IMG/VR virus record: IMGVR_UViG_3300032285_003360
Location: 37,770 to 101,769 of that record
Direction: 5' to 3' (one strand)
Origin: a virus
DNA length: 64,000 nt
In this document: piece after piece, positions 35,276-48,930 of the stretch
How positions within the stretch are numbered: the stretch's first letter is position 1
Layout of the letters: every line of letters starts with the position of its first letter
Made by a program: the position numbers and the translations under genes
The notes under the pieces: generated by a model
The model's database searches: none
What the model was told of the DNA's origin: nothing
The model's input: the letters and a program-made list of their open reading frames with translations, nothing else

Positions 35276-37986
35276 TTTGTAAAATATATCATTTGTAATT
35301 CGTCATTTCCACCCATAAACAATATGTAGGAAACAAAACCTAATCTTTGTAATCTGTTTATTAAATTTTCTCTTAATTCAACATTATGACCTAAATGTCC
35401 GTGATGATATTCCATTGCGATGTTTCTTACCTTTAAAAGATTATCATCCGATATTCCCGCAAAGGCATGTTGCTCTGCACCTTCGATATCCACTTTAAGG
35501 AAATCTATCTTATCAATCAAACCTGTTTCAAACAAATAATCTAACGTGTATGTTCTAACAGGATATTTTACACCATCACCCGCACCAAGTAAAGTGGAAC
35601 CACCTAAATGGTCGGTTTGGTATAATGTAAATTCACCAATTGTATCGGCCATTGCTGCGTTGAACAATATTGAACGTGGGTCAGCGTTTAATGATAATAA
35701 TTTGAAATATCTTCTATCAGGTTCAAACGAGATAACCTTACTTGCACCTTGACTGTAGACCCATCTATTGAAAATACCAACATTACCACCTAAGTCGACA
35801 ACAATATCACCTTCATTGATTACTCTTTCTCTATTCTTGTAATAATCCAATAGATTGAATATCTCATGGTAGATTGCTCTAAACCAACCGAACTTAGTTG
35901 CAACTTCCATTGTTCCGCCTTCGTAACCTTTGATGTCACCTAAGTTTTCTAATTTGTAAATGTCAGTATAAAAATATTCTGATTGATAGAATGAGTTGTC
36001 TCTTTTCATTTTAATAAACTCAATCATCTTATCTGATATCTCGGCGTTTTTATTACCGTGAAAATATATGATATCGGATTTATCTTTTGGAATGTATTGA
36101 TAACCAAAAATTCTATTGAAATTCTGTGGGCCATCTTCATTCCAAAACTTTAAAAATTGATGCATTGTTTTATCGATGAAACCTTCATCACCATCATAAG
36201 AAGATGTGTCAAAGTTTGATAATGGTAAGTGATTAGTAAAACCATGGTTCCATCTAATCGCATTATCTATACCTTCATCATTCCATAAGAAATATCGTTT
36301 ATAGTCTTCAGGACTACCTTGCATCATTGTGTCATAATATCCCAATATACCATCAAAAAAACCTCTTGAACCTTGATTGTAAATGTAGAAACAGATGTGC
36401 ATGTATGGTTGTTGTTTTTCAACTCCCCATCTTTTAGCTAATTCTTCATTAAATAATTGTGAACCACCTTCATATGTTCCAAAGAATTCTTCTTGAACGT
36501 GAATATCCGATAATGGGTAACGACCAACTTGTTTGAAATATTTTGTAACAGTATCAATATTGTAATTAACGACTACATCTCCGTCAACCCAAATGTAATA
36601 ATCAAAATCTTCGTTTAATGATTCTAAACAAGCCCATTGTTTCCAATACCATTTATCGTGTTCAGAAATCTTTGGTGGGTTAATAGTTCTTTTAATAACA
36701 TTAGGATAATCAAATGGAACTTCACAATCAACACCGTAAACAATAACTTTTTGACTACTGAATTCCAATAAAGATTGAACCATTTTTTCAATCACAGGCA
36801 TGTATTGTAAGTTACCGGTAGTAACAAATGCATATGATGGAAATATCTTATTCAACTTCTTACTTGCAAGCTCGGCCACATGTTCCCAATTAAAATCTTC
36901 ATGTATTTGTTTAGCCTCGGCTCTTGATTTGATGAGTATTGCTGTGTGATAATCATAAGCTTGACGCATTTGTGTTTTCAAATCATCCCAATTAGGTTCA
37001 CAATAATCACCTGGCCAATCTTTATGTTCAACATTCGCGGGTCTTAATTCTGATATACCTACAGGGATACCTTTACCACTAGCAAATTCAAGTTGTCCAC
37101 CCCAATTAGAATATATTGATGGTGTTCCACAAGCCATAGCTTCAATCAATGGTAAGTTCCATCCTTCGCTACGAGCACAAGAAACAAATACATCACCTTC
37201 TTGTAGATATTTGACGTATTCATCTCTTGTTGGGAATTTAATGAAATTAATTTTGGTATCATCAATTCCGTGGAATTCAATTCGTTCTTTTGTTGACTTT
37301 AAACCGTCATTTGGATATGGATTTTCAACTGATGCGATTAATTCCACATCATCAATATCTTTAAATGTTTCGGAAAAGGCTCTTAATATTTCTGTGGTTC
37401 CCTTTCTATAATCCCATCTACCAAAATGTAAAAATCTAAACTTATCTTTTTTTGAGAATTTCTCAATAGGTTTAAACGTCTCAACGTCAACACCTTCAGG
37501 AATGATTGTTATTTTGTGTTCAGGATAACCCTGCGCAACTAAACAATCATATTGCCATTGGGTTGGCACCCACATTTCATCAAATGTTAATAATCTATTA
37601 AAGAAATGTTCAGGGAATAATGTTGATTCCCAAACACAATAAGCAATTTTATAACCATCGTAATTGTCATAATAATAGAAGTTATCCATCTCCATTAAAA
37701 CAATGTGAACGTCAGGTTTAAAGCTACCATCATATCCGTAAATCGGATAGTCAGTTCTACTACCATCAGCATTGAATAGAGTTTGTTGAATCAACATATC
37801 CTTCATCTCATCGGTAATGTAAGGTTCGCCGTCATGTGGTGTTGGGTTATAACCTTTCCAACTATCACCAATAGTGAAGTTTCTTACTTTAACAGTGTGT
37901 AATTTGTTTAATGCACAAAAAAATGATTTACTATGGTTTGCGTAACCGGTAGTTCCAATAAAGGGTGCGTGAGCTAAGATTTTCAT
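35272..37986 (-). CDS. GT4 - GT-A - FkbM methyltransferase fusion
   Basis: The protein has 904 residues. Residues 1-375 form a GT-B enzyme (MKILAHAPFIGTTGYANHSK start; CARSEGWNLPLIEAMACGTP donor motif). Residues ~378-640 are a GT-A-like domain (YAFVTTGNLQYMPVIEKMVQ; IWVDGDVVVNY with the DxD). Residues ~700-904 are an FkbM-family methyltransferase (VVDLGGNVGIFNRW; VISFEPDRRYFKLL; FLKVDIEGAEQHAF). One polypeptide could add two sugars and methylate the product in the cytoplasm. The domain order is the mirror image of the next gene (methyltransferase, GT-A, GT-B). Coupled by ATGA to it. Confidence 0.88.
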   Translation of the reverse strand: MKILAHAPFIGTTGYANHSKSFFCALNKLHTVKVRNFTIGDSWKGYNPTPHDGEPYITDEMKDMLIQQTLFNADGSRTDYPIYGYDGSFKPDVHIVLMEMDNFYYYDNYDGYKIAYCVWESTLFPEHFFNRLLTFDEMWVPTQWQYDCLVAQGYPEHKITIIPEGVDVETFKPIEKFSKKDKFRFLHFGRWDYRKGTTEILRAFSETFKDIDDVELIASVENPYPNDGLKSTKERIEFHGIDDTKINFIKFPTRDEYVKYLQEGDVFVSCARSEGWNLPLIEAMACGTPSIYSNWGGQLEFASGKGIPVGISELRPANVEHKDWPGDYCEPNWDDLKTQMRQAYDYHTAILIKSRAEAKQIHEDFNWEHVAELASKKLNKIFPSYAFVTTGNLQYMPVIEKMVQSLLEFSSQKVIVYGVDCEVPFDYPNVIKRTINPPKISEHDKWYWKQWACLESLNEDFDYYIWVDGDVVVNYNIDTVTKYFKQVGRYPLSDIHVQEEFFGTYEGGSQLFNEELAKRWGVEKQQPYMHICFYIYNQGSRGFFDGILGYYDTMMQGSPEDYKRYFLWNDEGIDNAIRWNHGFTNHLPLSNFDTSSYDGDEGFIDKTMHQFLKFWNEDGPQNFNRIFGYQYIPKDKSDIIYFHGNKNAEISDKMIEFIKMKRDNSFYQSEYFYTDIYKLENLGDIKGYEGGTMEVATKFGWFRAIYHEIFNLLDYYKNRERVINEGDIVVDLGGNVGIFNRWVYSQGASKVISFEPDRRYFKLLSLNADPRSILFNAAMADTIGEFTLYQTDHLGGSTLLGAGDGVKYPVRTYTLDYLFETGLIDKIDFLKVDIEGAEQHAFAGISDDNLLKVRNIAMEYHHGHLGHNVELRENLINRLQRLGFVSYILFMGGNDELQMIYFTK

Positions 37987-38021: not shown

Positions 38022-39098
38022 TTAAATGATGGTTTTATTTTTATCTAAAAATTCGTGCATATTATGGAATACCATCTTCTCACCTCTAATTTTATTTAGA
38101 CTAATTAAAAATTGTGTGTGCTCAGGGTGAGATGTGTCCCATACCTTTCTAATCAAATATTCACTTTCACTAAAGCTACCCCAGTTCGCAATCTTACTGA
38201 AAAATATAACACCTCGTTTACCAAAAATATCTCTTATTAAATTAACAAACTCACTCATTTCAAAGTAGTTACCCGATTGAACGACAAATGATGTTCGTAT
38301 AAATCTTAATGTGGGTATTGTTTTAATAAAGTTTAAATTGTTAATCAGGTTTTCCCAATTACCACCAAGCCTTGTAACATTTTCATATGTTTCTTTTGAT
38401 GCCGCATCTATACTGATTTCACAACTTTTAACATAAGGATGTATATTGGACATGCTATCCCACATCTCTTTATTCCACATACTTGCGTTTGTGTGTAGAT
38501 GTATCTTTTTTAACTTGGGGTATTTGTTTGAATCAAATGTTCTTAAGAAATTTCTAAATGAAACGGAAACGAATGGGTCGCCACTACCAGTAATGTAAAG
38601 CGCGGTAATATCCTTTGCATAAGCATCTTCTATTTCACTAATTGTTGATTTAATTTTTTTAATCTCATCGCCACTTGCTGTTATAACATCAATTCTACAT
38701 GATGGACATTTGTAATTACATGTCGCATCAAAAGCGAATTGGACAACACTTGGTCCAACCGTCATTTCACCAGTTTCATAATCATAGTCCTCAATTAATT
38801 CATGAAAATCTTCTTTTAATACCAACGGACCTTTCCTATCGTTTAAATCACCATCTAATAAAGCCGATAGATACGGACAATAGTTTTTGTCACAATATTT
38901 GTAACTACCATCTAATACCGACTTTCTTATTTCTTTGGATTCGGTTGAATTCCAAATTTGTTCAATTGAATGGTCTTCGTGTTTAATTACTTTTGGCATC
39001 CACGTGGGACAACACATATATGAAGATGTTTTGTGTATTTCAATGGTTTTAAATGGTGTCAAACAAACATAATCATTTAAATTAACATCATTTCTCAT
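38022..39098 (-). CDS. Radical-SAM protein with N-terminal twitch domain (type A)
   Basis: The 358-residue protein has the 4Fe-4S/SAM core motif C-x3-C-x2-C at Cys127, Cys131 and Cys134 (TCNYKCPSC), and ITGSGDP where GGEP normally binds SAM. Ahead of the core is a SPASM/twitch-like domain with Cys12, Cys29, Cys30, Cys69 and Cys74 around EQIWNSTESKEIRKSV, probably an auxiliary cluster. The placement is inverted relative to ordinary SPASM proteins, and matches the N-terminal twitch radical-SAM group. Substrate unknown. Its closest relative in the window is the 50425 gene; both sit near an SGNH hydrolase gene. Overlaps the sulfotransferase by 4 nt. Confidence 0.85.
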   Translation of the reverse strand: MRNDVNLNDYVCLTPFKTIEIHKTSSYMCCPTWMPKVIKHEDHSIEQIWNSTESKEIRKSVLDGSYKYCDKNYCPYLSALLDGDLNDRKGPLVLKEDFHELIEDYDYETGEMTVGPSVVQFAFDATCNYKCPSCRIDVITASGDEIKKIKSTISEIEDAYAKDITALYITGSGDPFVSVSFRNFLRTFDSNKYPKLKKIHLHTNASMWNKEMWDSMSNIHPYVKSCEISIDAASKETYENVTRLGGNWENLINNLNFIKTIPTLRFIRTSFVVQSGNYFEMSEFVNLIRDIFGKRGVIFFSKIANWGSFSESEYLIRKVWDTSHPEHTQFLISLNKIRGEKMVFHNMHEFLDKNKTII

Positions 39099-39691
39099 AT
39101 TAAAACCTTTGTGTTTTTTTCGCCACGATATTTTTTACTAATATCTAAATAATCTTTAAAATATCGCTCATTATATGGACACTCAATTTCGTTTAAAAAT
39201 TCAATCATGTTTTCTTTATTATAAAATAAATCTTCATAATAGAAAATTTTTGACTGCTTAATTTCAGCGAGTTGGTGCATTTCGTTTTTAACATCTTGCA
39301 AAACCTTCAAACTCAATTCTAATTTTTGGGAATCCTTTTTTTCATCATACATATATTGTCCTTCCCACTTGTTACTAATTAAAGCAGATGAAAAACTTTC
39401 AGATTGTTTCTCAAGGTCTTTTCTACTTAAAAAAACTATTTTATCAAAATCATTAAAAACAATATCATAAAACTCATATCTTGTTATATTATTATATTCA
39501 CTTGGTATTTGTTTATATAATTGTTTAATAAAACAATCGTTATGTTTTAATACATCGCTATATGGAATTGATTCGTGTTTTAAAATGTTAAATGGTTCCA
39601 AATAAACACTATATTTTGGTTTAACCTTAAAAAAATATTTACCTAAGGATGTTGAACCCGTTCTTGGTTCAGCAATTAACATTATTCTCAT
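39095..39691 (-). CDS. Sulfotransferase-like protein
   Basis: RIMLIAEPRTGSTSLGKYF (residues 2-20) is the 5'-phosphosulfate-binding loop of PAPS-dependent sulfotransferases. KIVFLSRKDLEKQSESFSSA (from ~84) matches the 3'-phosphate-binding strand with its R/S residues, and FYYEDLFYNKENMIEFL is the usual C-terminal strand-helix. The 198 residues are at the short end of the family. It would move sulfate from PAPS to a hydroxyl, probably of a glycan or tyrosine. It is in the same transcription direction as an APS-kinase-like gene (46681) that could make the donor. Confidence 0.75.
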   Translation of the reverse strand: MRIMLIAEPRTGSTSLGKYFFKVKPKYSVYLEPFNILKHESIPYSDVLKHNDCFIKQLYKQIPSEYNNITRYEFYDIVFNDFDKIVFLSRKDLEKQSESFSSALISNKWEGQYMYDEKKDSQKLELSLKVLQDVKNEMHQLAEIKQSKIFYYEDLFYNKENMIEFLNEIECPYNERYFKDYLDISKKYRGEKNTKVLI

Positions 39692-40455
39692 ATAATCGTT
39701 TTTTTAGTTTGTGGTTCTAACCCTAACATACGAATAAATTCTTCATAAATCAAATGTTGTCTATAAGTTGTGTAATGATCCAAATCCCTTGCTTCTAATG
39801 AACCATCCTTACTCCAATTAATATCATCGTTTCTTAGAAGATAATAATTACACCCTATTTCCGATGCCAAATGTTTTATTGCGGAAATAAATGCAGTATC
39901 GATAAAAGATTGTTGGTCGTTGTTAACTAACGAATCTTCAATCAATGTTCCATATTGAACTTTCCATTCATCTTGATATTCATTGACTTTACAAATTGTT
40001 GGTTTACCGTTAATTATGAATTCGTATCTATAGTAATTTGGGAGGTAATGGAATATGTTTTTAATCTTTAACTCTTTATAATAACCAAGTAATAAACGAT
40101 AATGTGACATCACTCCAGTCCCGCCAATGGATAAGTTCCAAAACTTACCTCCGATTTGGTTGTTTACTTTATATGACCACACGTTTTCAAGATGGTGACC
40201 GACACCAAATGTATATGAACAACCTAAAAACACATTACCCTCATCAACCAAATTAAAATCATCAGGTGACCTGAAACCTTCATTGTTTAATGTGTATTTT
40301 ATTGGGTTTTCTAAATAATATTTTAAACTTTCGTTGTTGGGATATCTCTTTAAATTGGATATGAAATTCTCCTCTTCGTTTTGTGTAATCCAATTGTATG
40401 TTGTGTTAGGTGAATATTTCTCCCAACCGCACCTGTCTTTATAAATGGGAATCAT
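39688..40455 (-). CDS. SGNH/GDSL-family hydrolase
   Basis: FLGCSYTFGVGHHLENVW provides the nucleophile motif G-C-S-x-T-x-G (serine near residue 78). NLSIGGTGV gives block-II Gly, and ARDLDHYTTYRQH gives a C-terminal D-x2-H pair. The preceding YTLNNEGFRSPDDF is typical of phage SGNH proteins that begin with an NExGFR segment. These enzymes usually add or remove acyl esters on sugars or proteins. At 255 residues it is a stand-alone domain, with 4-nt overlaps at both ends. Confidence 0.75.
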   Translation of the reverse strand: MIPIYKDRCGWEKYSPNTTYNWITQNEEENFISNLKRYPNNESLKYYLENPIKYTLNNEGFRSPDDFNLVDEGNVFLGCSYTFGVGHHLENVWSYKVNNQIGGKFWNLSIGGTGVMSHYRLLLGYYKELKIKNIFHYLPNYYRYEFIINGKPTICKVNEYQDEWKVQYGTLIEDSLVNNDQQSFIDTAFISAIKHLASEIGCNYYLLRNDDINWSKDGSLEARDLDHYTTYRQHLIYEEFIRMLGLEPQTKKTII

Positions 40456-41000
40456 ATAAAACTTTTCTTTGTGATGGGTTTTACATTCTCATTGACAATT
40501 GCGATAATCATTGATTTCCTTTCCCCAGATGTTATTATTTCAACTTCATGTGGTGTTTCAGGTGTTATAGCTAAAAAACTACCAATTTCTTTACTCATTG
40601 GTATTGGTTGGTCGTTAACATAAGATAAGAACTGGCCACCTTCGTAATCTGTTTGATTTGATAATTGAACAATACACACACAAAATCTGTTATGTTCAAA
40701 TGGGTCGGAATCAATATGTTTACTGATAAAATTACCATCATTATATTTGTATATTTCAAATGGTAAAACATCGACATCTATTTTATACCCAAGTTCATTA
40801 AATGATTCGTTAATTTTCTTAAACAATAAATCATCTTTTGTTATTGAAGCATTTGTTACAAAACTATTTCGTTTTTTTAAATTATACCCAACTTCATTGT
40901 TATTTCCCGCTTTAAAATAAGACTGCACGAATTGTCCACCCAATCCTCTTAGATATTGACATTCGGATTCGTCAAATAGTTTTTTCTCAAATAAAATCAT
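40452..41000 (-). CDS. 2-oxoglutarate/Fe(II) oxygenase, prolyl-4-hydroxylase-like
   Basis: The 182 residues contain the full facial triad and co-substrate arginine: H-x-D at His95/Asp97 (FISKHIDSDP), His151 (TPHEVEIITSGER) and Arg161. YEGGQFLSY is the conserved strand between them. It would hydroxylate a protein or free amino acid residue using oxygen and 2-oxoglutarate. Unlike the two diverged oxygenase-like genes at 44545 and 45018, all catalytic positions are intact here. It overlaps the SGNH gene by 4 nt. Confidence 0.85.
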   Translation of the reverse strand: MILFEKKLFDESECQYLRGLGGQFVQSYFKAGNNNEVGYNLKKRNSFVTNASITKDDLLFKKINESFNELGYKIDVDVLPFEIYKYNDGNFISKHIDSDPFEHNRFCVCIVQLSNQTDYEGGQFLSYVNDQPIPMSKEIGSFLAITPETPHEVEIITSGERKSMIIAIVNENVKPITKKSFI

Positions 41001-41009
41001 AAAATAAAA

Positions 41010-41150
41010 TTATGAATGAGCTGCTTTCAAATATGATATAAAATTCGCAATAGTTTGTGCAACTTTTGCTTTATCGCTTGTTGAAACCGGCTTAACTGTT
41101 CTATTTTTTAAATCTTCTAAATTAACTGATTTATAAACGTTTATAGACAT
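41010..41150 (-). CDS. Very small protein (46 aa)
   Basis: The frame runs ATG 41150 to TAA 41010 and fills the gap between the Hint-domain protein and the oxygenase (11 and 9 bases away). Residues: a short strand start (SINVYKSVNLEDL), a basic middle, and a C-terminal helix VAQTIANFISYLKAA. It could be a modification substrate or a small structural peptide, but no leader or repeat motif supports this. Confidence 0.45.
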   Translation of the reverse strand: MSINVYKSVNLEDLKNRTVKPVSTSDKAKVAQTIANFISYLKAAHS

Positions 41151-41161
41151 TTTCTTTGATT

Positions 41162-43024
41162 TTAAACTTTGTTATGGACTAATATTCCATTAGCATAGAA
41201 ATTATGGTTATCTTCAACCGAAATGATATATGTTTGAACATCTTCTGTTGGTAATTCCTCTATTGAAGATATTGCTGTTTGACTAACACCATTTGTTACG
41301 TAAACCAAATTACCAACTTGAATTTTATTAATTTCTCTACCTAAATCATATCTCTCAGTTGTTAATTCAGGTGCATATGACGCTAAATTAAAACCATGGG
41401 TATAATATGGGTGGTCAAAAGTAGATGTTACCTCTGTTTGGTTTGAAAATTTATATTTAACCATGTCGTTATGGATTGGTTGTTTTAATCCAATAACTTT
41501 TTTAGGTTCGTTAGTTTTAGTTTCTTCATTAAATGACATAACCTCATCACCAATTACCACATCTTCAATGTTCTTTTGTGTGTTGTCACCCATTGTCACC
41601 TCAGTGCCAGCAGGGAAACAAGCACCACCTCTGATTACGTTGTGAGATACTAATCTAATGATTTTAGAACCACCAACTAAGAAAGTATCCACATCTTCCA
41701 TATTAGGTGAATAAAGCTTCTCAGTTGTTTCTAAAATTTGAATATCAACGCTAACAATCGGAACAAGGTTTCCTGTTGCATCAAAAACAGAATAGTTTGT
41801 TGTTAATATATTACACGGAACATACTTAATTGCGTCATCTGATGCACTATATACTAACAATCTTGTTGCACCACCAATTCTTACAAATTCATCGTCAGGG
41901 AATGTTATTTTGGTTATTTCATTTGCGAATGGTTCCCATTCAAACAAATAAATTAACACAGAAGTTGAGCCACTTGAACCTTCAGGTAATGTGCTCCCTG
42001 AGAAACTCCATGTGTCTAATAAATCATCATCATCCGTGTTTGGTGAACCATTTACAAAATATGATGGATATGAGTCACCTTCAACCATTGTTGATATTGG
42101 TATTTCATTACCATTGATATCTACAACTGTTTCATCAGCTAATAAACCGTGTCTTTCATTTTTGATAATATTTGTTGCAAATTCATAGTAATGTTTAACA
42201 TCTATTTTATTCGCAATTACTGTGTCATCATATTCCACTGAACTTGGCATGTTGAAAACAGCGTCAACTTCATATTCTGCAACATCACAAATATCCAAAT
42301 TAGGACCATAAACAATCTTAAATGATCTTACGGATGTGATTGCGTTATTTGTTAGTTGGTCAGATGAAACATGGTATTGTTCAATAACGTTATCTTGAGT
42401 TGCTGCACTATTTAAAAAATCAGCATATCTATCGCCCGTTGATAATTCGGATTTACCTATTTTATAGAATGGAAATGATTTATGGTCAACCACAACTGGT
42501 TTAATAACCATATCAGGAACATTAGATGGATTCAACGATGTTGTATCTAAAGTATTATATTGACCGTATGTTGTCGATGAGTGATAGAAATTCACAATTG
42601 ATTGGGCATCTCCACTATCTGCGAATAATTTTAAAAGGTTTAAAGTCCCTTTTGCATATTCTGAGTCTAAAATCGCTGTTTCATCGTATGCAAATCTTAA
42701 AATAAACTTGTTTACATCATCTGCAGGGGATTGTGGGAAAATGGAATCACCTGGAACCACAATTGGCTCAATAGTGGTTACAAATGGTGCTGACGCCATT
42801 AAGGTATCAGTTAAATGCTTAACAATGTTAGCATGTAACCCAATTTTGTATATCAAAACCACGTGGTTTATGTTGTTATCGGATAAGATTTGGATAAGAT
42901 TTGTGTAATCGAAAAAATTGGTTACACTACCATATCCTGCAGAAGTGTCGGTATTAATTTCCAATAATCTTAGGTCTCCATTGGAGTCTCTGACGAAATC
43001 GGAAGAAAAGAATGTTCCTTTCAT
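41162..43024 (-). CDS. Phage protein with C-terminal Hint (intein-like) domain
   Basis: The protein has 620 residues. The N-terminus reads SSDFVRDSNGDLRLLEINTD, resembling a C-terminal ATP-grasp strand. The middle ~400 residues are beta-rich, virion-protein-like. From Cys469 a complete Hint domain follows: CFPAGTEVTMGD (block A), TSTFDHPYYTHG (block B, His538) and NFYANGILVHN (block G, His617-Asn618). Only Lys-Val follow the terminal Asn, so there is no +1 Cys/Ser/Thr and no C-extein. Self-cleavage or ligation to another nucleophile is more likely than splicing, as in bacterial intein-like domains. 31 bases separate it from the upstream gene. Confidence 0.8.
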   Translation of the reverse strand: MKGTFFSSDFVRDSNGDLRLLEINTDTSAGYGSVTNFFDYTNLIQILSDNNINHVVLIYKIGLHANIVKHLTDTLMASAPFVTTIEPIVVPGDSIFPQSPADDVNKFILRFAYDETAILDSEYAKGTLNLLKLFADSGDAQSIVNFYHSSTTYGQYNTLDTTSLNPSNVPDMVIKPVVVDHKSFPFYKIGKSELSTGDRYADFLNSAATQDNVIEQYHVSSDQLTNNAITSVRSFKIVYGPNLDICDVAEYEVDAVFNMPSSVEYDDTVIANKIDVKHYYEFATNIIKNERHGLLADETVVDINGNEIPISTMVEGDSYPSYFVNGSPNTDDDDLLDTWSFSGSTLPEGSSGSTSVLIYLFEWEPFANEITKITFPDDEFVRIGGATRLLVYSASDDAIKYVPCNILTTNYSVFDATGNLVPIVSVDIQILETTEKLYSPNMEDVDTFLVGGSKIIRLVSHNVIRGGACFPAGTEVTMGDNTQKNIEDVVIGDEVMSFNEETKTNEPKKVIGLKQPIHNDMVKYKFSNQTEVTSTFDHPYYTHGFNLASYAPELTTERYDLGREINKIQVGNLVYVTNGVSQTAISSIEELPTEDVQTYIISVEDNHNFYANGILVHNKV

Positions 43025-43055
43025 ATGTTGTTTCTTTAATGTTTATATATAAATA

Positions 43056-43790
43056 TTAGATTAATCTTTTAGTTTCTGGTGAGGGTATTTTAATCTTATA
43101 CTTAACCCTACCCGCATAATGTCTATAATATTGGTTTTGGTTACCCAAAAACTCAGATAACGGACTAAAGGCCACCCTCGCATTTTTGGTCAAAATAGTT
43201 AAGATATATTGGGCTCCCACCGATGTGTGATCTAAACTTAACCTATCCCCATTATCTTTTATAAATTGATTAAATTGTTTCCAATAATCAACATACTGTT
43301 TTTTTAGTGTTTCATTGGTAATCCTGAGTAAACCGCAATTAAACACTTTTTCCGCCCTCTTTGCGTCAAATAATGGGATTACGTCATTTACCCCAATACC
43401 GTTAAGTTCTTTAATTGGATCACCGTAAGTATCGGCCCAATAATTGGTTTCAAATGCGTCAAATGTTACGTCAACATCCAACACAGGTAATCTTGAACTC
43501 AGGATTACATCCCCATCAATTAGGTAAAAATCATCGGTTCTTTCTTCCAAAACCTTAATTTTAAAACTGTCAAATAATGGGGAGTCTTCATAATTCTCAG
43601 CCGTTATTATTTCATCCACATATTCTTGAAACAGCTCCGCCCTATCTTGATTTGTGTATAAAATGGTATTATAACCTAATTTCTTGGCAGATGCAATAGA
43701 AGTCCTATATAAGTCAATTAAGACGTTATAATGTCGATTCTCCATACCATCTCTACGAACGTTAAAGTTATATGTCCAAATTAGATTCAT
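43056..43790 (-). CDS. GT-A-fold glycosyltransferase-like, tandem copy 1
   Basis: The 244-residue protein starts MNLIWTYNFNVRRDGMENRH and has YDEIITAENYEDSPLFDSFK-like text and DDFYLIDGDVILSSRLP, where DGD is the metal-binding motif (residues ~91-93). FNCGLLRITNETLKKQYVDY and YYRHYAGRVKY follow in the second half. Its neighbour at 43796 aligns along the whole length, so the two arose by tandem duplication. The donor sugar and acceptor are unknown. Confidence 0.7.
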   Translation of the reverse strand: MNLIWTYNFNVRRDGMENRHYNVLIDLYRTSIASAKKLGYNTILYTNQDRAELFQEYVDEIITAENYEDSPLFDSFKIKVLEERTDDFYLIDGDVILSSRLPVLDVDVTFDAFETNYWADTYGDPIKELNGIGVNDVIPLFDAKRAEKVFNCGLLRITNETLKKQYVDYWKQFNQFIKDNGDRLSLDHTSVGAQYILTILTKNARVAFSPLSEFLGNQNQYYRHYAGRVKYKIKIPSPETKRLI

Positions 43791-43795
43791 ATTGT

Positions 43796-44548
43796 TTAAA
43801 ATAACCTTTTATCTCCAATAAATGGAGGTTTTACTGAAAACTTTATTTTACCAACATAATGTCTATAATAATCATTTTCTTCACCAAGTATTTTAGATAA
43901 CGGATAAACCGTGGAGTCCATTTCTTTAGCTATCATCGTTAGAATATATTGACCCGCAACCAATGTTTGGTCTTTGTTTAATAATTGGCCATTGGTTTTT
44001 ACAAAACTGTTAAACCTTTTCCAGTAATCAACGTAAACATCTTTTAGCTTTTTATTAGTAATTCTTAATAAACCACAATTGAAGATTTTATCCTCACCAT
44101 TGAATATTTTTTCCGCCTTTTCGTTGAATATTGGAAGAGTGTCGTTGATATTCAATTTTAGTAGTTCTTTTATTTGGTCACCATATGTGTGTTTCCAAAA
44201 TTCAGCCTCATAAGCGTCAAATGTTATATCAACATCCATTTCTGGTATTCTTGAATTTAAAATGACGTCTCCATCGATTAAATAAAAATCGTCATTTCTA
44301 TCCTCTAAAACTTTAATTTTAAAACTATCGAATAATGGTGAACCCTCATAATCCTCCACAGTGATGATTTCATCAACATAGGGTTTAAAGATATGTGAAT
44401 GCGTGCTATTTGTGTAAATTATGGTATGATAACCTAATTTTTTTGCGGTGGTAATTGATAATTTATAAAATTCGGTTAAAACCTCCGAATGCCATTTCTT
44501 CATACCATCCATATTCACATTAAAGTTATATGTCCATATTAATTTCAT
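43796..44548 (-). CDS. GT-A-fold glycosyltransferase-like, tandem copy 2
   Basis: I use the ATG at 44548 (MKLIWTYNFNVNMDGMKKWH) because it aligns with the start of copy 1 and gives an ATGA overlap with the preceding gene; an upstream ATG adds 26 residues that do not fit. DDFYLIDGDVILNSRIPEMD carries the DxD. FNCGLLRITNKKLKDVYVDY and YYRHYVGKIKF match copy 1. A short extra segment (FNGEDKI) is inserted before the FNCGLL motif. Confidence 0.7.
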   Translation of the reverse strand: MKLIWTYNFNVNMDGMKKWHSEVLTEFYKLSITTAKKLGYHTIIYTNSTHSHIFKPYVDEIITVEDYEGSPLFDSFKIKVLEDRNDDFYLIDGDVILNSRIPEMDVDITFDAYEAEFWKHTYGDQIKELLKLNINDTLPIFNEKAEKIFNGEDKIFNCGLLRITNKKLKDVYVDYWKRFNSFVKTNGQLLNKDQTLVAGQYILTMIAKEMDSTVYPLSKILGEENDYYRHYVGKIKFSVKPPFIGDKRLF

Positions 44549-45021
44549 ATAAACTTTTGTGTTGGTGGTTTTGTCTCTAATATGTCGTTTAGGAAATCTT
44601 GTTTTGATGAACCAACCAAAGCCCATCTTAAACCTTTGTGTTCGGTGATTCGATGCATCTCATTCTCATTAAAATAAACTAACATCCCTTTTACCGGTTT
44701 AACAACTATGCCGTTTGTGAATTCCAATAACCCACCTTCAAATTCTTCGTTTAAGTATATGATAAAATTATATGGGTTAAAATGATTATGAAAAACAGGG
44801 TTTTGATTTATACTATCATCATATTTTTGCAACCTCAACGCCTCAAACTTTTTTGTTTTAAAAAAATTGTTTTTTGCGGTTATGTTATCCTTTTTTAAAT
44901 TTAAATCATTAAAATAAAAATATGCACCAATATTGGAATACTTTATGGTGTCATCTTCCCACATTGATAGAATTTGATTAATATCATCATCATTAAGAAA
45001 TTTCTCAACTATTAAAATCAT
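44545..45021 (-). CDS. Oxygenase-like cupin-fold protein with altered metal site
   Basis: The 158 residues share the layout of the next gene: MILIVEKFLNDDDINQILSM start, a central FHNHFNPYNFIIYLNEEF, GGLLEF, a GMLVYFNENEMHRITEH strand and a final LRWALVG. This is the double-stranded beta-helix of 2OG/Fe(II) oxygenases, with the distal His and following Arg present. Where the H-x-(D/E) pair should be, this copy has His-Phe-Asn, losing the acidic ligand, so it may be inactive, use halide or another ligand, or act as a binding protein. Confidence 0.6.
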   Translation of the reverse strand: MILIVEKFLNDDDINQILSMWEDDTIKYSNIGAYFYFNDLNLKKDNITAKNNFFKTKKFEALRLQKYDDSINQNPVFHNHFNPYNFIIYLNEEFEGGLLEFTNGIVVKPVKGMLVYFNENEMHRITEHKGLRWALVGSSKQDFLNDILETKPPTQKFI

Positions 45022-45479
45022 ATTAATCCTTTGCTTTCTTTATTAAATAAATCTTCTCTTAAAAATCCAATTAAAGTGAATCTATTACCAAATGTTGATT
45101 CAACTCTATGTCTTTCGTCTCCCGTAAAATACACCATTGTTCCCTTTTTAGGTTTTATTGGTTCTTTATCTAAAAACACTAATTCACCACCATTAAATTC
45201 TTCATTTAAAAAAATTGAAAAGGAATATGGTTCTGTATGTGCGTGGTAATATTCTACTTGGTTTATTGACTCATCCACTAACTGTATTCTTAATGAGTTG
45301 TATGATTTTCTTGATTTGAGAATTTCAGGAACATTAAGCTTATCTATGATTGGTAATAAATCAATCCCTTTAAATCGATATATTTCATCATTAACTTTAT
45401 AGAATACCTTATCATCCCATAAAGATAACACATGAGTTATTTGTTCATTATTTAAAAAATTATCAATAAATCTAATCAT
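45018..45479 (-). CDS. 2OG/Fe(II) oxygenase-like protein (H-x-E type)
   Basis: The 153-residue protein is the tandem paralogue of the 44545 gene. YYHAHTEPYSFSIFLNEEFN holds a His-Thr-Glu that can serve as an H-x-E metal pair, GGELVFL follows, and GTMVYFTGDERHRVESTFGN contains the distal His and a basic partner. This is the prolyl-hydroxylase-like arrangement seen in many phage oxygenases. A protein or sugar substrate is possible. It overlaps its paralogue by 4 nt. Confidence 0.65.
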   Translation of the reverse strand: MIRFIDNFLNNEQITHVLSLWDDKVFYKVNDEIYRFKGIDLLPIIDKLNVPEILKSRKSYNSLRIQLVDESINQVEYYHAHTEPYSFSIFLNEEFNGGELVFLDKEPIKPKKGTMVYFTGDERHRVESTFGNRFTLIGFLREDLFNKESKGLI

Positions 45480-45480
45480 T

Positions 45481-45693
45481 TTAATCTTTTTTAAGCCCGT
45501 ATTTCACCCATTTATACCAAACCCTTTCATGGATGTAATATTGAATTGGTTTCCATACAAGTTCAGCTACACCAAATGCTGCGCCCCATTTAACTGAACC
45601 AGTAACAGCCCACATTGTTAAAAACCCGATAGTTGTGCTGATTATTCTATATGATATTGTTTTAGCAATATGTCTTTTTCTTTGAACTATCAT
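45481..45693 (-). CDS. DUF2061 small membrane protein
   Basis: The 70 residues match DUF2061: RKRHIAKTISYRIISTTIGF, a hydrophobic turn with TGSVKWGAAFGVAELVWKPI and the terminal YYIHERVWYKW. Two short transmembrane helices are likely. In bacteria DUF2061 is often fused to or found beside APS kinase (from general knowledge of the family), and here an APS-kinase-like gene lies 1 kb upstream in the same unit. Its role is unknown. It overlaps the methyltransferase gene by 4 nt. Confidence 0.85.
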   Translation of the reverse strand: MIVQRKRHIAKTISYRIISTTIGFLTMWAVTGSVKWGAAFGVAELVWKPIQYYIHERVWYKWVKYGLKKD

Positions 45694-46295
45694 AATAATG
45701 TTTTTTTAATTTTTCCTTTGTAATGAAAATTATTACCATTGAATTTGGTGTATGTTATTTTAAAATCATTTCTTTTACCATAAGGTAATGATTTTAGGTC
45801 ATCTTCATTTAAAAGAAAATCAATTGTCTCAAATCTTTGGTCGGGTTTATCATAATGAAAGAATGCAACAATACAATTATCATTACATTTATCGATTATG
45901 TTATTTAAAAAAATGGGTAAATTACCATCTCTATGTGTGTCATGTAATATACCATCAAATTTTTCTGTAAGTGTTGGTAGAATGTCAATCCAATCACCCA
46001 ATATTATTTTAACATTCATTTTATCTTTAGCCCATTCAAGTGCTCTTTGATAAATTTCAGGATGAACTTCAATTATTGTATGAGATTTAACATTTGGATT
46101 GGCTTGGACTGCGTCAGCAGATAAATGTAAACCAAATCCTAACTCTAAAATATCGCCACCGTTTTGTGTTGCAACTTCCGCAAGTTTATTCATTAGTTCT
46201 CTTTCCCCGTTATGCATTATAGCTTCACCCTTACCCATTGTTGATTCAATGTAAATGGCGTCTTCAGTAAAAACTAATTTTTCTTTTCCGTTCAT
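45690..46295 (-). CDS. SAM-dependent methyltransferase, guanidinoacetate-methyltransferase-like
   Basis: The 201 residues contain DILELGFGLHLSADAVQ (motif I), HTIIEVHPEIYQRALEWAKD (strand 2 and helix), ILGDWIDILPTL and KFDGILHDTHRDGN. This E-G-F-G...E-(V/N)-x-P...W-x-D...FDGI-x-D-T pattern is that of guanidinoacetate/RMT2-type N-methyltransferases. It probably methylates a nitrogen in a small molecule or peptide. It starts directly at the preceding stop and sits between a nucleotidyltransferase and DUF2061. Confidence 0.75.
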   Translation of the reverse strand: MNGKEKLVFTEDAIYIESTMGKGEAIMHNGERELMNKLAEVATQNGGDILELGFGLHLSADAVQANPNVKSHTIIEVHPEIYQRALEWAKDKMNVKIILGDWIDILPTLTEKFDGILHDTHRDGNLPIFLNNIIDKCNDNCIVAFFHYDKPDQRFETIDFLLNEDDLKSLPYGKRNDFKITYTKFNGNNFHYKGKIKKTLL

Positions 46296-46679
46296 TTAAT
46301 CATTAAGATTAGGATACTCAATTAAATCACCATTGGAATCAATATATCCATTTCTAATTTGTGTTCCACTTATTTTAGATATGTCAGCAGGTGGTTCGTG
46401 ATAAATAACATCATATCCAACACCTCTACCATAATTTATCGATTCAATATCAGGTATAATTGATATTTGTATTTTATGTGAATTTTCCTTAAAAAATGGC
46501 TCGTCCGCTAATTCCATCATAACTTGTTGAGCTGTTTTAGGGTTATTTTCATCTGTTGGGACGTTTCTAATGGCAACCCAAATGTCTTTTCCCTTTTCTA
46601 ATTGTTGGTTAAGGAGCCACTCGTGACCCTTATGCCAGTTTTGCCATCGGCCCACATAAAGTGCATACTTTTTACTCAT
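46296..46679 (-). CDS. Small HxGH nucleotidyltransferase (ATP-sulfurylase/NMNAT-like)
   Basis: The 127 residues have ALYVGRWQNWHKGHEWLL with the His16-x2-His19 nucleotidyltransferase signature and a C-terminal ISGTQIRNG (residues 103-111). This fold serves NMN adenylyltransferases, cytidylyltransferases and ATP sulfurylases; a closing ISGT-x-(I/V)-R is shared by several of them. Being one base from an APS-kinase-like gene, it could make APS from ATP and sulfate, but it is far shorter than known sulfurylases. The alternative is activation of a sugar or alcohol phosphate. Confidence 0.75.
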   Translation of the reverse strand: MSKKYALYVGRWQNWHKGHEWLLNQQLEKGKDIWVAIRNVPTDENNPKTAQQVMMELADEPFFKENSHKIQISIIPDIESINYGRGVGYDVIYHEPPADISKISGTQIRNGYIDSNGDLIEYPNLND

Positions 46680-46680
46680 A

Positions 46681-47112
46681 TTATAGTGATTTTCTTATTT
46701 TTTGAAATGATTCGTATTGGTCTTCATTTGTTGTATCAATATTAACATAATTATCCAAGGGTGGTTCGTAATTTTGAACGTGGAATTCTTCTCGACCTCT
46801 AATATCTGTGGTATGAATATAAAATTCTTTAATGTCATTACCCATCTTAGATTTAAAGGACTCCCTTTGGTCTCGATATGGTGACACTAAAGATACAATT
46901 GCTGTTAATTTCTTATGATGTAAGAATAGAGCCAAATCTTGTGCTCTTTCGATATTCTTTCTTCTACCTTCTTCAGAATAATCCTTATTTTGATAAACAT
47001 CTCTAATATCATCGCCATCAATAATAATGGCGTTATTGTAAAAATGGGCTTTTAACCATTCAGCTAATGTTGTTTTACCTGCACCAGGTTGTCCTGTTAA
47101 CCATATAATCAT
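46681..47112 (-). CDS. Adenylylsulfate (APS) kinase-like protein
   Basis: The protein has 143 residues. IWLTGQPGAGKTTLAEWL is the P-loop (residues 7-15). IIIDGDDIRDVYQNKDYSEE followed by GRRKNIERAQDLA is the APS-kinase lid and helix, IVSLVSPYRDQRESFK the conserved SPYR segment, and NYEPPLDNYVNIDT the terminal region. APS kinase makes PAPS, the donor for sulfotransferases. It is shorter than CysC of free-living bacteria (~200 aa), lacking part of the C-terminal helix bundle. It leads the 47.1-45.5 kb block, downstream of a 38-base gap. Confidence 0.88.
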   Translation of the reverse strand: MIIWLTGQPGAGKTTLAEWLKAHFYNNAIIIDGDDIRDVYQNKDYSEEGRRKNIERAQDLALFLHHKKLTAIVSLVSPYRDQRESFKSKMGNDIKEFYIHTTDIRGREEFHVQNYEPPLDNYVNIDTTNEDQYESFQKIRKSL

Positions 47113-47268: not shown

Positions 47269-48930
47269 TTATTTGTATATTAAGTAATTTCCAATCACCA
47301 ATAAGTCCAACTCCGTGTTTAGAAAGGTGTCTATTGCGTCTTGAGGAGTCAAAACCATGGTTTTATCTTTGATGTTAAATGAAGTATTCAAAACAATAGG
47401 ATATCCTGAAAGTTTTTCAAATTCAGTTAATAATTGATGAATTAAAGCGTTTTTATATACCGTTTGTATTCTAGCACTGCCATCAACATGAGTTACAGCA
47501 GGTAATTTATCGCGATATTCAGTTTTAACTTGAACAACTTGATTCATATATGGGACATCATCTGTAACTTCAAAATATATGTGTTGTTTTTCTTTGGCAA
47601 CCATTGGCGCAAATGGTCTAAATCCTTCTCTTTTTTTAATAAGCCTATTAATCCTATCTTTCATATTAGGAATCGTAGGGTCAGCCAAAATTGAACGGTT
47701 ACCCAAAGCTCTTGAGCCAAATTCACATTGACCTTGATACCACCCAACGACTTTACCTTCTCGTAATTTTTTAGCTACATTACGCATTAAGGTATCTTCA
47801 TAATTGAATTTAATATATTTTTTATTTTTTATAGCTTTTAATATATCGTCGTGGAAATATTGTGGACCTAAGAATGGTGATTTCCCAACTCTACCTTTTA
47901 GTATCTTATTTTCAGATAAAAAATGTAAACAAGCACCAATAGCAGAACCTGCATCAGATGGCGCCGGTGGTATCCATAAGTTATTGAAGTGGGATTTTTT
48001 TACTATTTTACCATTTGCAGTTCCATTGTAAGCACAACCACCTCCTAAACATAGGTTACGGTTATCGTTGATTAAGGATATAGATTTTATAATTTCAAAT
48101 AAAATTTCCTCATATCTTTTTTGAACTGCAGCCGCTAAATCCATGTGTTTTTGTTGAATTTCGTCACCTCTCATTTCCATACCAAGTAATTCCGATAATT
48201 CATATTTAAACATGATGTCATTAGAGGTGTTCCAACAAAACATATCCATATTACATTCTAACTTACTATTTTTAAATGTAATTAATTCTCTTACTTTATC
48301 AATATAAACATTAGGGTCACCATAAGAAGCCAAACCCATTACCTTATACTCGCCTTCATTTGGTTTGAATCCTAAAAATGATGTCATTGCTGAGTAATAT
48401 AACCCCAAAGAATGTGGGTATGTTGCTACAGGAACATAATCAATACCATTGTTATCCCCTAAACCGATTGAAATGGTATCTATTTCACCAACTCCGTCTA
48501 TGGATAAAATCATCGCATTCTCAAAATTAGATGTGTAGAACGAATAGTATTGATGAGATTTGTGGTGTGTGGAATAGAATATTGTGTCAGAATATTTTGA
48601 TAGAATGTTATTTAATTCTTTTATATTTTTTCTAATTTTAAAATACGATTTTAATGAGTAAATGGGGTTTTTAAACCACTGTGGTTTAAGGTTTTCCATT
48701 ACTCTTTTATACTTTAATTTAGGGTCTTCATAATAACATACCGCTGATATATCCTTTTTAGATATCTTATATCGTTTTAATATAAAATCAATTGATTTAT
48801 ATGGGAATGAACTATCATGTTTAATTCCTGAAAATTTCTCCTCTTCGCAAGCATATATTAATTGTCCATTTTTAAACAAGCAAGCCGCCGAGTCGTGATA
48901 AAATGCTGATATCCCTAAAACATACTTCAT
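47269..48930 (-). CDS. Carbamoyltransferase (NodU/CmcH/TobZ family)
   Basis: The 553 residues start YVLGISAFYHDSAACLFKNG and keep the family blocks in order: HHKSHQYYSFYTS, LSIDGVGE, NEGEYKVMGLASYG, LCLGGGCAYNGTANG, GWYQGQCEFGSRALGNRSIL and YPIVLNTSFNIKDK. These cover the YrdC-like carbamoyl-adenylate site and the Kae1-like transfer domain. The enzyme attaches carbamoyl groups from carbamoyl phosphate to hydroxyls of sugars or antibiotics. Here the likely acceptor is a sugar on the phage or host surface. It overlaps the preceding GT-like gene by 4 nt. Confidence 0.95.
   Translation of the reverse strand: MKYVLGISAFYHDSAACLFKNGQLIYACEEEKFSGIKHDSSFPYKSIDFILKRYKISKKDISAVCYYEDPKLKYKRVMENLKPQWFKNPIYSLKSYFKIRKNIKELNNILSKYSDTIFYSTHHKSHQYYSFYTSNFENAMILSIDGVGEIDTISIGLGDNNGIDYVPVATYPHSLGLYYSAMTSFLGFKPNEGEYKVMGLASYGDPNVYIDKVRELITFKNSKLECNMDMFCWNTSNDIMFKYELSELLGMEMRGDEIQQKHMDLAAAVQKRYEEILFEIIKSISLINDNRNLCLGGGCAYNGTANGKIVKKSHFNNLWIPPAPSDAGSAIGACLHFLSENKILKGRVGKSPFLGPQYFHDDILKAIKNKKYIKFNYEDTLMRNVAKKLREGKVVGWYQGQCEFGSRALGNRSILADPTIPNMKDRINRLIKKREGFRPFAPMVAKEKQHIYFEVTDDVPYMNQVVQVKTEYRDKLPAVTHVDGSARIQTVYKNALIHQLLTEFEKLSGYPIVLNTSFNIKDKTMVLTPQDAIDTFLNTELDLLVIGNYLIYK

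Follow-up and report, generated by a model that had tools for sequence, protein, structure and literature searches.

A compact NadM-like nucleotidyltransferase paired with APS kinase as a candidate ATP sulfurylase of phages and SAR11 bacteria

Can a phage activate sulfate and transfer it to a surface glycan or protein with its own genes? This question is raised by a gene run in the environmental virus record IMGVR_UViG_3300032285_003360 (101,769 bp), of which positions 37,770 to 101,769 were analyzed (64,000 nucleotides, hereafter the window). The initial annotation of the window had proposed a sulfation pathway encoded in one strand-uniform run. The open reading frames (ORFs) of its four members were confirmed at the following coordinates: KIN (46681..47112, 143 aa), a short P-loop kinase of the adenosine 5'-phosphosulfate (APS) kinase family; NT (46296..46679, 127 aa), a compact HxGH nucleotidyltransferase; DUF2061 (45481..45693, 70 aa), a small predicted membrane protein; and SULT (39095..39691, 198 aa), a compact sulfotransferase-fold protein. 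All four lie on the minus strand as proposed, but SULT is approximately 6 kb away from KIN and NT, and adjacency of a sulfotransferase was seen in relatives instead. We consider it likely that the phage carries a module for sulfate activation and sulfation, in which NT serves as a compact, non-orthologous ATP sulfurylase, KIN produces 3'-phosphoadenosine 5'-phosphosulfate (PAPS), and SULT uses PAPS.

In the catalytic steps that we propose, NT would transfer AMP from ATP onto sulfate, giving APS and pyrophosphate. KIN is predicted to phosphorylate the 3'-OH of APS to give PAPS, which would pull the unfavourable first step. SULT, a predicted PAPS user, would then transfer the sulfo group to an acceptor molecule, perhaps one made by the surrounding cluster of glycosyltransferase, carbamoyltransferase, and radical S-adenosylmethionine (SAM) genes. 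DUF2061 may be a membrane accessory, possibly for sulfate supply. We infer the sulfurylase activity of NT from its context, namely pairing, fusion, and distribution.

Close relatives of NT and KIN were found in 262 and 149 environmental viral stretches, respectively. Of 132 distinct viral loci, approximately 94 had KIN and NT together, 92 had DUF2061 near KIN or NT, and 20 had a sulfotransferase detected with the profile used. In the PHROG family phrog_10255, the N-terminal part aligns with KIN and the C-terminal part with NT. Because this family covers both proteins, fused versions exist in phages; among cultured phages they are exemplified by Stenotrophomonas phages Suzuki and DLP6 and Clavibacter phage 33. 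The association of KIN, NT, and DUF2061 is more than chance, because the KIN-NT neighbourhood and the proximity of DUF2061 recur and phrog_10255 spans both KIN and NT. A sulfotransferase gene directly preceded the kinase gene in viral loci L071, L268, L277, L284, and L312 and preceded a kinase alone in L111, and relatives of SULT were directly downstream of NT in L034, L036, and L108. The upstream-type viral sulfotransferases tested (L074, L277, L312, and L111) all scored over the Pfam cut-offs. The DUF2061 protein of the window scored 57.4 bits against PF09834 (cut-off 23.1), in agreement with the family first assigned to it. A tie between DUF2061 and APS kinase had also been suggested, and it was borne out by the viral loci and by a fusion of the two in one genome (Ferruginibacter L174).

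NT homologues with 30-48% identity were present in Marinimicrobia, Bacteroidota, Omnitrophota, Acidobacteria, SAR86, SAR11, candidate-phyla bacteria, and the haloarchaeon Halocatena. NT was accompanied by an APS kinase in 64 of 80 fetched cellular loci (46 adjacent, 14 fused, and 4 within 3 kb), and these partners include canonical APS kinases (149-240 bits). Fusions with NT first were observed in L166 (Omnitrophota), L169, L175, L178, and L206, and fusions with the kinase first in L165, L167, L173, L176 (Halocatena), and L181; the occurrence of both orders indicates that the fusions arose more than once. In the Flavobacteriales locus L168, a canonical APS kinase (240 bits) precedes NT. The Ferruginibacter locus consists of the DUF2061-APS-kinase fusion, whose kinase is canonical, followed by NT and a sulfotransferase-like gene scoring slightly under the Sulfotransfer_3 cut-off (23.9 bits), and in Halocatena a sulfotransferase is located near the fusion of APS kinase and NT.

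Which family does NT belong to? NT carries the motifs GRWQNWHKGH and ISGTQIR, the latter already recorded in the initial annotation along with the HxGH motif and the adjacency to the kinase. Its invariant residues are G10, R11, Q13, H16, G18, H19, R38, P47, P76, G84, R85, G88, S104, and R109. Its GR-x-x-G loop, which reads GRGVGY in most members, is likewise invariant and has only motif-level similarity to the GRDHAG loop of Sat. NT scored under the Pfam cut-off for CTP_transf_like and gave only weak matches to general nucleotidyltransferase or nicotinamide mononucleotide (NMN) adenylyltransferase models. The AlphaFold model, predicted from an alignment of rows other than those of cultured phages, showed a nucleotidyltransferase fold with a predicted local distance difference test score (pLDDT) of 91. 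In the VIA structure list for NT, phosphopantetheine adenylyltransferases (PPATs) were at the top (Z 10.1), tied with NMN adenylyltransferase (NMNAT; 9.8), and ATP sulfurylases (8a8g and 1jhd) appeared in the Foldseek list only at ranks 41 and 45. NMNAT and PPAT are the nearest structures to NT. The size of NT had been regarded as remarkable; although 127 aa is short for a sulfurylase, it is not short for the HxGH fold. PF01747, the Sat family, gave no match for the NT of the window and weak matches for 15 of 43 relatives, and NT was ruled out as a Sat-type sulfurylase by motif and profile.

The best profile match of NT was to archaeal NadM (1ej2 and 1f9a), with which it shares the HxGH fold, GRxQ..HxGH, and (I/Y)SGTxIR. 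In contrast to NadM, NT is shorter by approximately 25 residues mid-protein, between the central strand and SGTxxR, has its own GR-x-x-G loop, and is surrounded by genes of sulfur metabolism. The spacing from P[DN]I to ISxT was 24 residues in 45 of 48 members of the NT family. Membership in NadM was ruled out by score (22.3 bits against the equivalog cut-off of 181.2 for TIGR01527) and by the missing middle segment. Judged by its sequence, NT is a NadM-like HxGH adenylyltransferase, a NadM offshoot by family that lies outside the Sat family, and sulfate activation is not a known activity of its family. Since NT is neither Sat nor NadM by membership, its proposed activity rests on context. The sulfation reading of the locus is likewise supported by fusions, the aprA neighbourhood, the absence of Sat and CysD, and adjoining sulfotransferases rather than by family membership, and the same context disfavours the use of CTP with a sugar or alcohol phosphate by NT.

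The NadM-type NMNATs are the nearest relatives of NT in both sequence (profile E 7.7e-12) and fold, the NCBIfam NMNAT models match 43 of 43 NT members, albeit weakly, and NAD pathways are known in phages. NT could accordingly be an NMNAT whose pairing with KIN serves NAD metabolism, such as phage NAD salvage, with KIN acting as a ribosylnicotinamide-type or other kinase. We regard this as unlikely, because NT falls far under the NMNAT cut-off (22 versus 181 bits) and NadM aligns to it as two pieces, separated by 9 residues in NT and approximately 34 in 1f9a. Moreover, NT is found with canonical APS kinases, sulfotransferases, and APS reductase rather than with NAD genes, and an NMNAT would leave the absence of Sat and CysD without a reason.

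Does KIN act on APS? KIN scored 66.3 bits against PF01583 (cut-off 21.1), placing it in the Pfam APS-kinase family as first annotated, and its best PDB sequence matches were APS-kinase structures (2.3e-12). It aligns to solved APS kinases via the P-loop and the DGDxIR, SxxxRxxN, and SPYRxxR motifs. Among the viral kinases, the equivalents of D63, R66, and R80 (Penicillium numbering) were each kept in 178 of 178 members, F/Y75 in 178 of 178, and N83 in 177 of 178; we take D63, R66, F75, R80, and N83 to be APS-contact residues. KIN was below the NCBIfam equivalog cut-off TIGR00455 (69.1 versus 138.7 bits), being truncated relative to the model and shortened in its lid. It shares its motifs and APS-contact residues with the APS kinase CysC (PF01583) but differs in its length of only 143 aa and in its shortened lid segment (RDPKGLYKKAR).

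APS-kinase homologues with different substrates are known, as in the case of Cj1415 in Campylobacter capsule synthesis. NT and KIN might similarly produce a different 3'-phosphorylated nucleotide anhydride, in which phosphate, phosphonate, or phosphoramidate, for instance, takes the place of sulfate, and the shortened lid of the phage kinases and the position of the loci in glycan-type clusters would fit such a product. We find this very improbable, because canonical APS kinases are fused or adjacent to NT (L166, L168, L174, and L176), sulfotransferases adjoin the pair, and the aprBA neighbourhood indicates APS itself.

The initial annotation had called the ORF at 39095-39691 a sulfotransferase. 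SULT had no Pfam match of its own, and its relatives matched sulfotransferase families weakly (PF13469 at E<=0.1 in 5 of 20). A close search for relatives yielded a single contig, in which the protein was 100% identical, and further relatives were gathered by iterated profile. The AlphaFold model (pLDDT 88.8) was compared using Foldseek, and the first nine matches were all sulfotransferase chains, with Stf0 at the top (E 1.8e-4, template modelling score 0.61). R10, G12, R90, and S99 are invariant in the family. Like the Stf0 and Sulfotransfer_3 sulfotransferases, SULT has the fold, the 5' loop (PRTGST), and R...QxES; it differs from them in its short length and in the missing Pfam match. With this fold, 5' loop, and 3' R/S motif, SULT agrees with PAPS-dependent sulfotransferases and with the original assignment.

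In SAR11, NT was located 1.4-2.2 kb from aprA in 8 fetched loci, and a kinase was not nearby in 7 of these 8. AprA was scored with TIGR02061, and AprB was recognised by the APS-reductase C-terminal domain. Among 237 Pelagibacterales genomes, NT was present in 171 of 190 AprA-positive and 14 of 47 AprA-negative genomes (Fisher p 2.6e-16, without correction for shared ancestry). Sat was present in just 9 of the AprA-positive genomes, and 163 of the 181 without Sat carried NT. APS is the metabolite common to the APS kinase and APS reductase contexts of NT, so the location of NT beside either enzyme points to APS as the shared metabolite. In the account of SAR202, AprBA requires a second, APS-to-sulfate step, and sat was found there (PMC5864207). 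We infer that NT is a natural candidate for this step in most SAR11 genomes, where it would react beside AprBA and convert APS from sulfite oxidation to ATP and sulfate.

The position of NT beside AprBA in SAR11, where sulfite is oxidised to APS and a second step is needed (PMC5864207), would also suit an enzyme that only degrades APS, an APS:phosphate or APS:pyrophosphate adenylyltransferase recovering ADP or ATP, with which phages would drain host APS. We assign this a low probability, comparable to that of another anhydride, because synthesis fits the fusion and pairing of NT with APS kinase and sulfotransferases, and sulfurylases are reversible. A role in CoA synthesis (PPAT plus a 3'-kinase), weighed for its similar chemistry and the PPATs at the top of the VIA list, was rejected, as the partners of NT are APS kinases and sulfotransferases.

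NT-bearing genomes are nearly devoid of Sat and CysD. Among 38 of them, Sat was present in 1, CysD in 3 (1 of them over the cut-off), and a sulfotransferase over the PF13469 cut-off in 18. Neither Sat nor CysD was found in any of 7 NT-bearing Bacteroidota genomes, whereas 76 of 82 sampled Bacteroidota genomes with a strong APS kinase had CysD or a kinase ORF as long as a Sat fusion (p 2.5e-7). The fusion count was based on the lengths of these kinase ORFs, four of which were examined for Sat motifs; the 7 genomes came from the NT homologue search, and the Bacteroidota sample itself had NT in the centre genome only. Separately, a few SAR11 genomes have Sat-like ORFs of 331-358 aa (L313 and L322-L331), in which QxRNPxHxxH is unmatched and GRDHAG is retained.

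Several observations weigh against NT as a sulfurylase and against a common module. NT comes closest to NMNAT and PPAT in both sequence and fold, the sulfate-binding QxRNPxHxxH motif of Sat is absent from NT, and the profile alignment of NT with Sat (hhalign) is limited to the HxxH region. NT and DUF2061 occurred without a nearby kinase in 33 of the 132 viral loci, some long contigs showed no PF01583 match anywhere, and in 35 loci with kinase and NT neither DUF2061 nor a sulfotransferase was detected. Two of the APS-contact positions differ in the kinases of SAR11. In addition, kinship of the genomes inflates the co-occurrence statistics, and many of the genomes are incomplete. Weighing both sides, we lean toward NT as the founder of a new compact, NadM-derived ATP sulfurylase family in phages, SAR11, Marinimicrobia, Bacteroidota, and a haloarchaeon, which would provide PAPS for phage sulfation and would be the unrecognised enzyme completing AprBA-based sulfite oxidation in SAR11.

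What else surrounds the pair? A methyltransferase gene (45690..46295, minus strand) of the guanidinoacetate N-methyltransferase (GAMT) group, which matched GAMT structures at 3e-15, is inserted between NT and DUF2061. It is probably a variable passenger of the module, because a counterpart was present in just 15 of 158 related loci. A carbamoyltransferase gene upstream of KIN (47269-48930, minus strand) has homologues in 80 of the 158 related loci and may share a product pathway with the module. A 620-aa protein (41162-43024, minus strand) has a C-terminal Hint/intein-like self-processing domain, and its homologues are often directly after DUF2061 in related loci. In the regions 43056-45479 and 38022-39098 (minus strand), the same cluster contains a pair of 2-oxoglutarate-oxygenase-like genes, a pair of glycosyltransferase-like ORFs that are similar to each other, and a gene of the radical SAM/SPASM type. 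In the viral loci L046-L066 (e.g., L046:5108-8147), which have NT and DUF2061 without a kinase, the flanks look like a UV-endonuclease gene, a peptide deformylase gene, and a T4-type sigma-factor-like gene. In the small-phage contigs L116-L158, KIN-NT adjoins a DNA methyltransferase, and DUF2061 or a sulfotransferase was not detected.

The proposed module follows the two-step logic of bifunctional PAPS synthases (Sat-APS kinase fusions such as human PAPSS1 and Aquifex 2gks), in which a sulfurylase is paired with or fused to a homologous kinase. It differs from them in that a NadM-like NT of 110-130 aa, unrelated in detail, replaces the Sat domain, and in that the genes are separate in the phage of the window and fused in both orders elsewhere. 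As proposed, NT would be unrelated in detail to both Sat and CysDN. The NT family and its link with DUF2061 were not described in the freely accessible papers searched. Phage cysC genes from the environment have been interpreted as part of assimilatory sulfate reduction (PMC9529941). The kinase gene of the window resembles these APS-kinase genes, but its association with NT, DUF2061, and sulfotransferases favours sulfation over reduction.

If this interpretation is true, NT would be a third and much smaller family of sulfate-activation enzymes, overlooked in hundreds of phage contigs as well as in bacteria that are common in the ocean. Viral cysC genes would be reinterpreted as feeding the sulfation of phage or host molecules, not sulfate reduction. 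In the most abundant bacteria of the ocean, the family is also encoded next to genes for sulfur oxidation and could supply the step missing there; it would close the gap that sulfite oxidation shows in SAR11, in which AprBA produces APS yet most genomes show no Sat.

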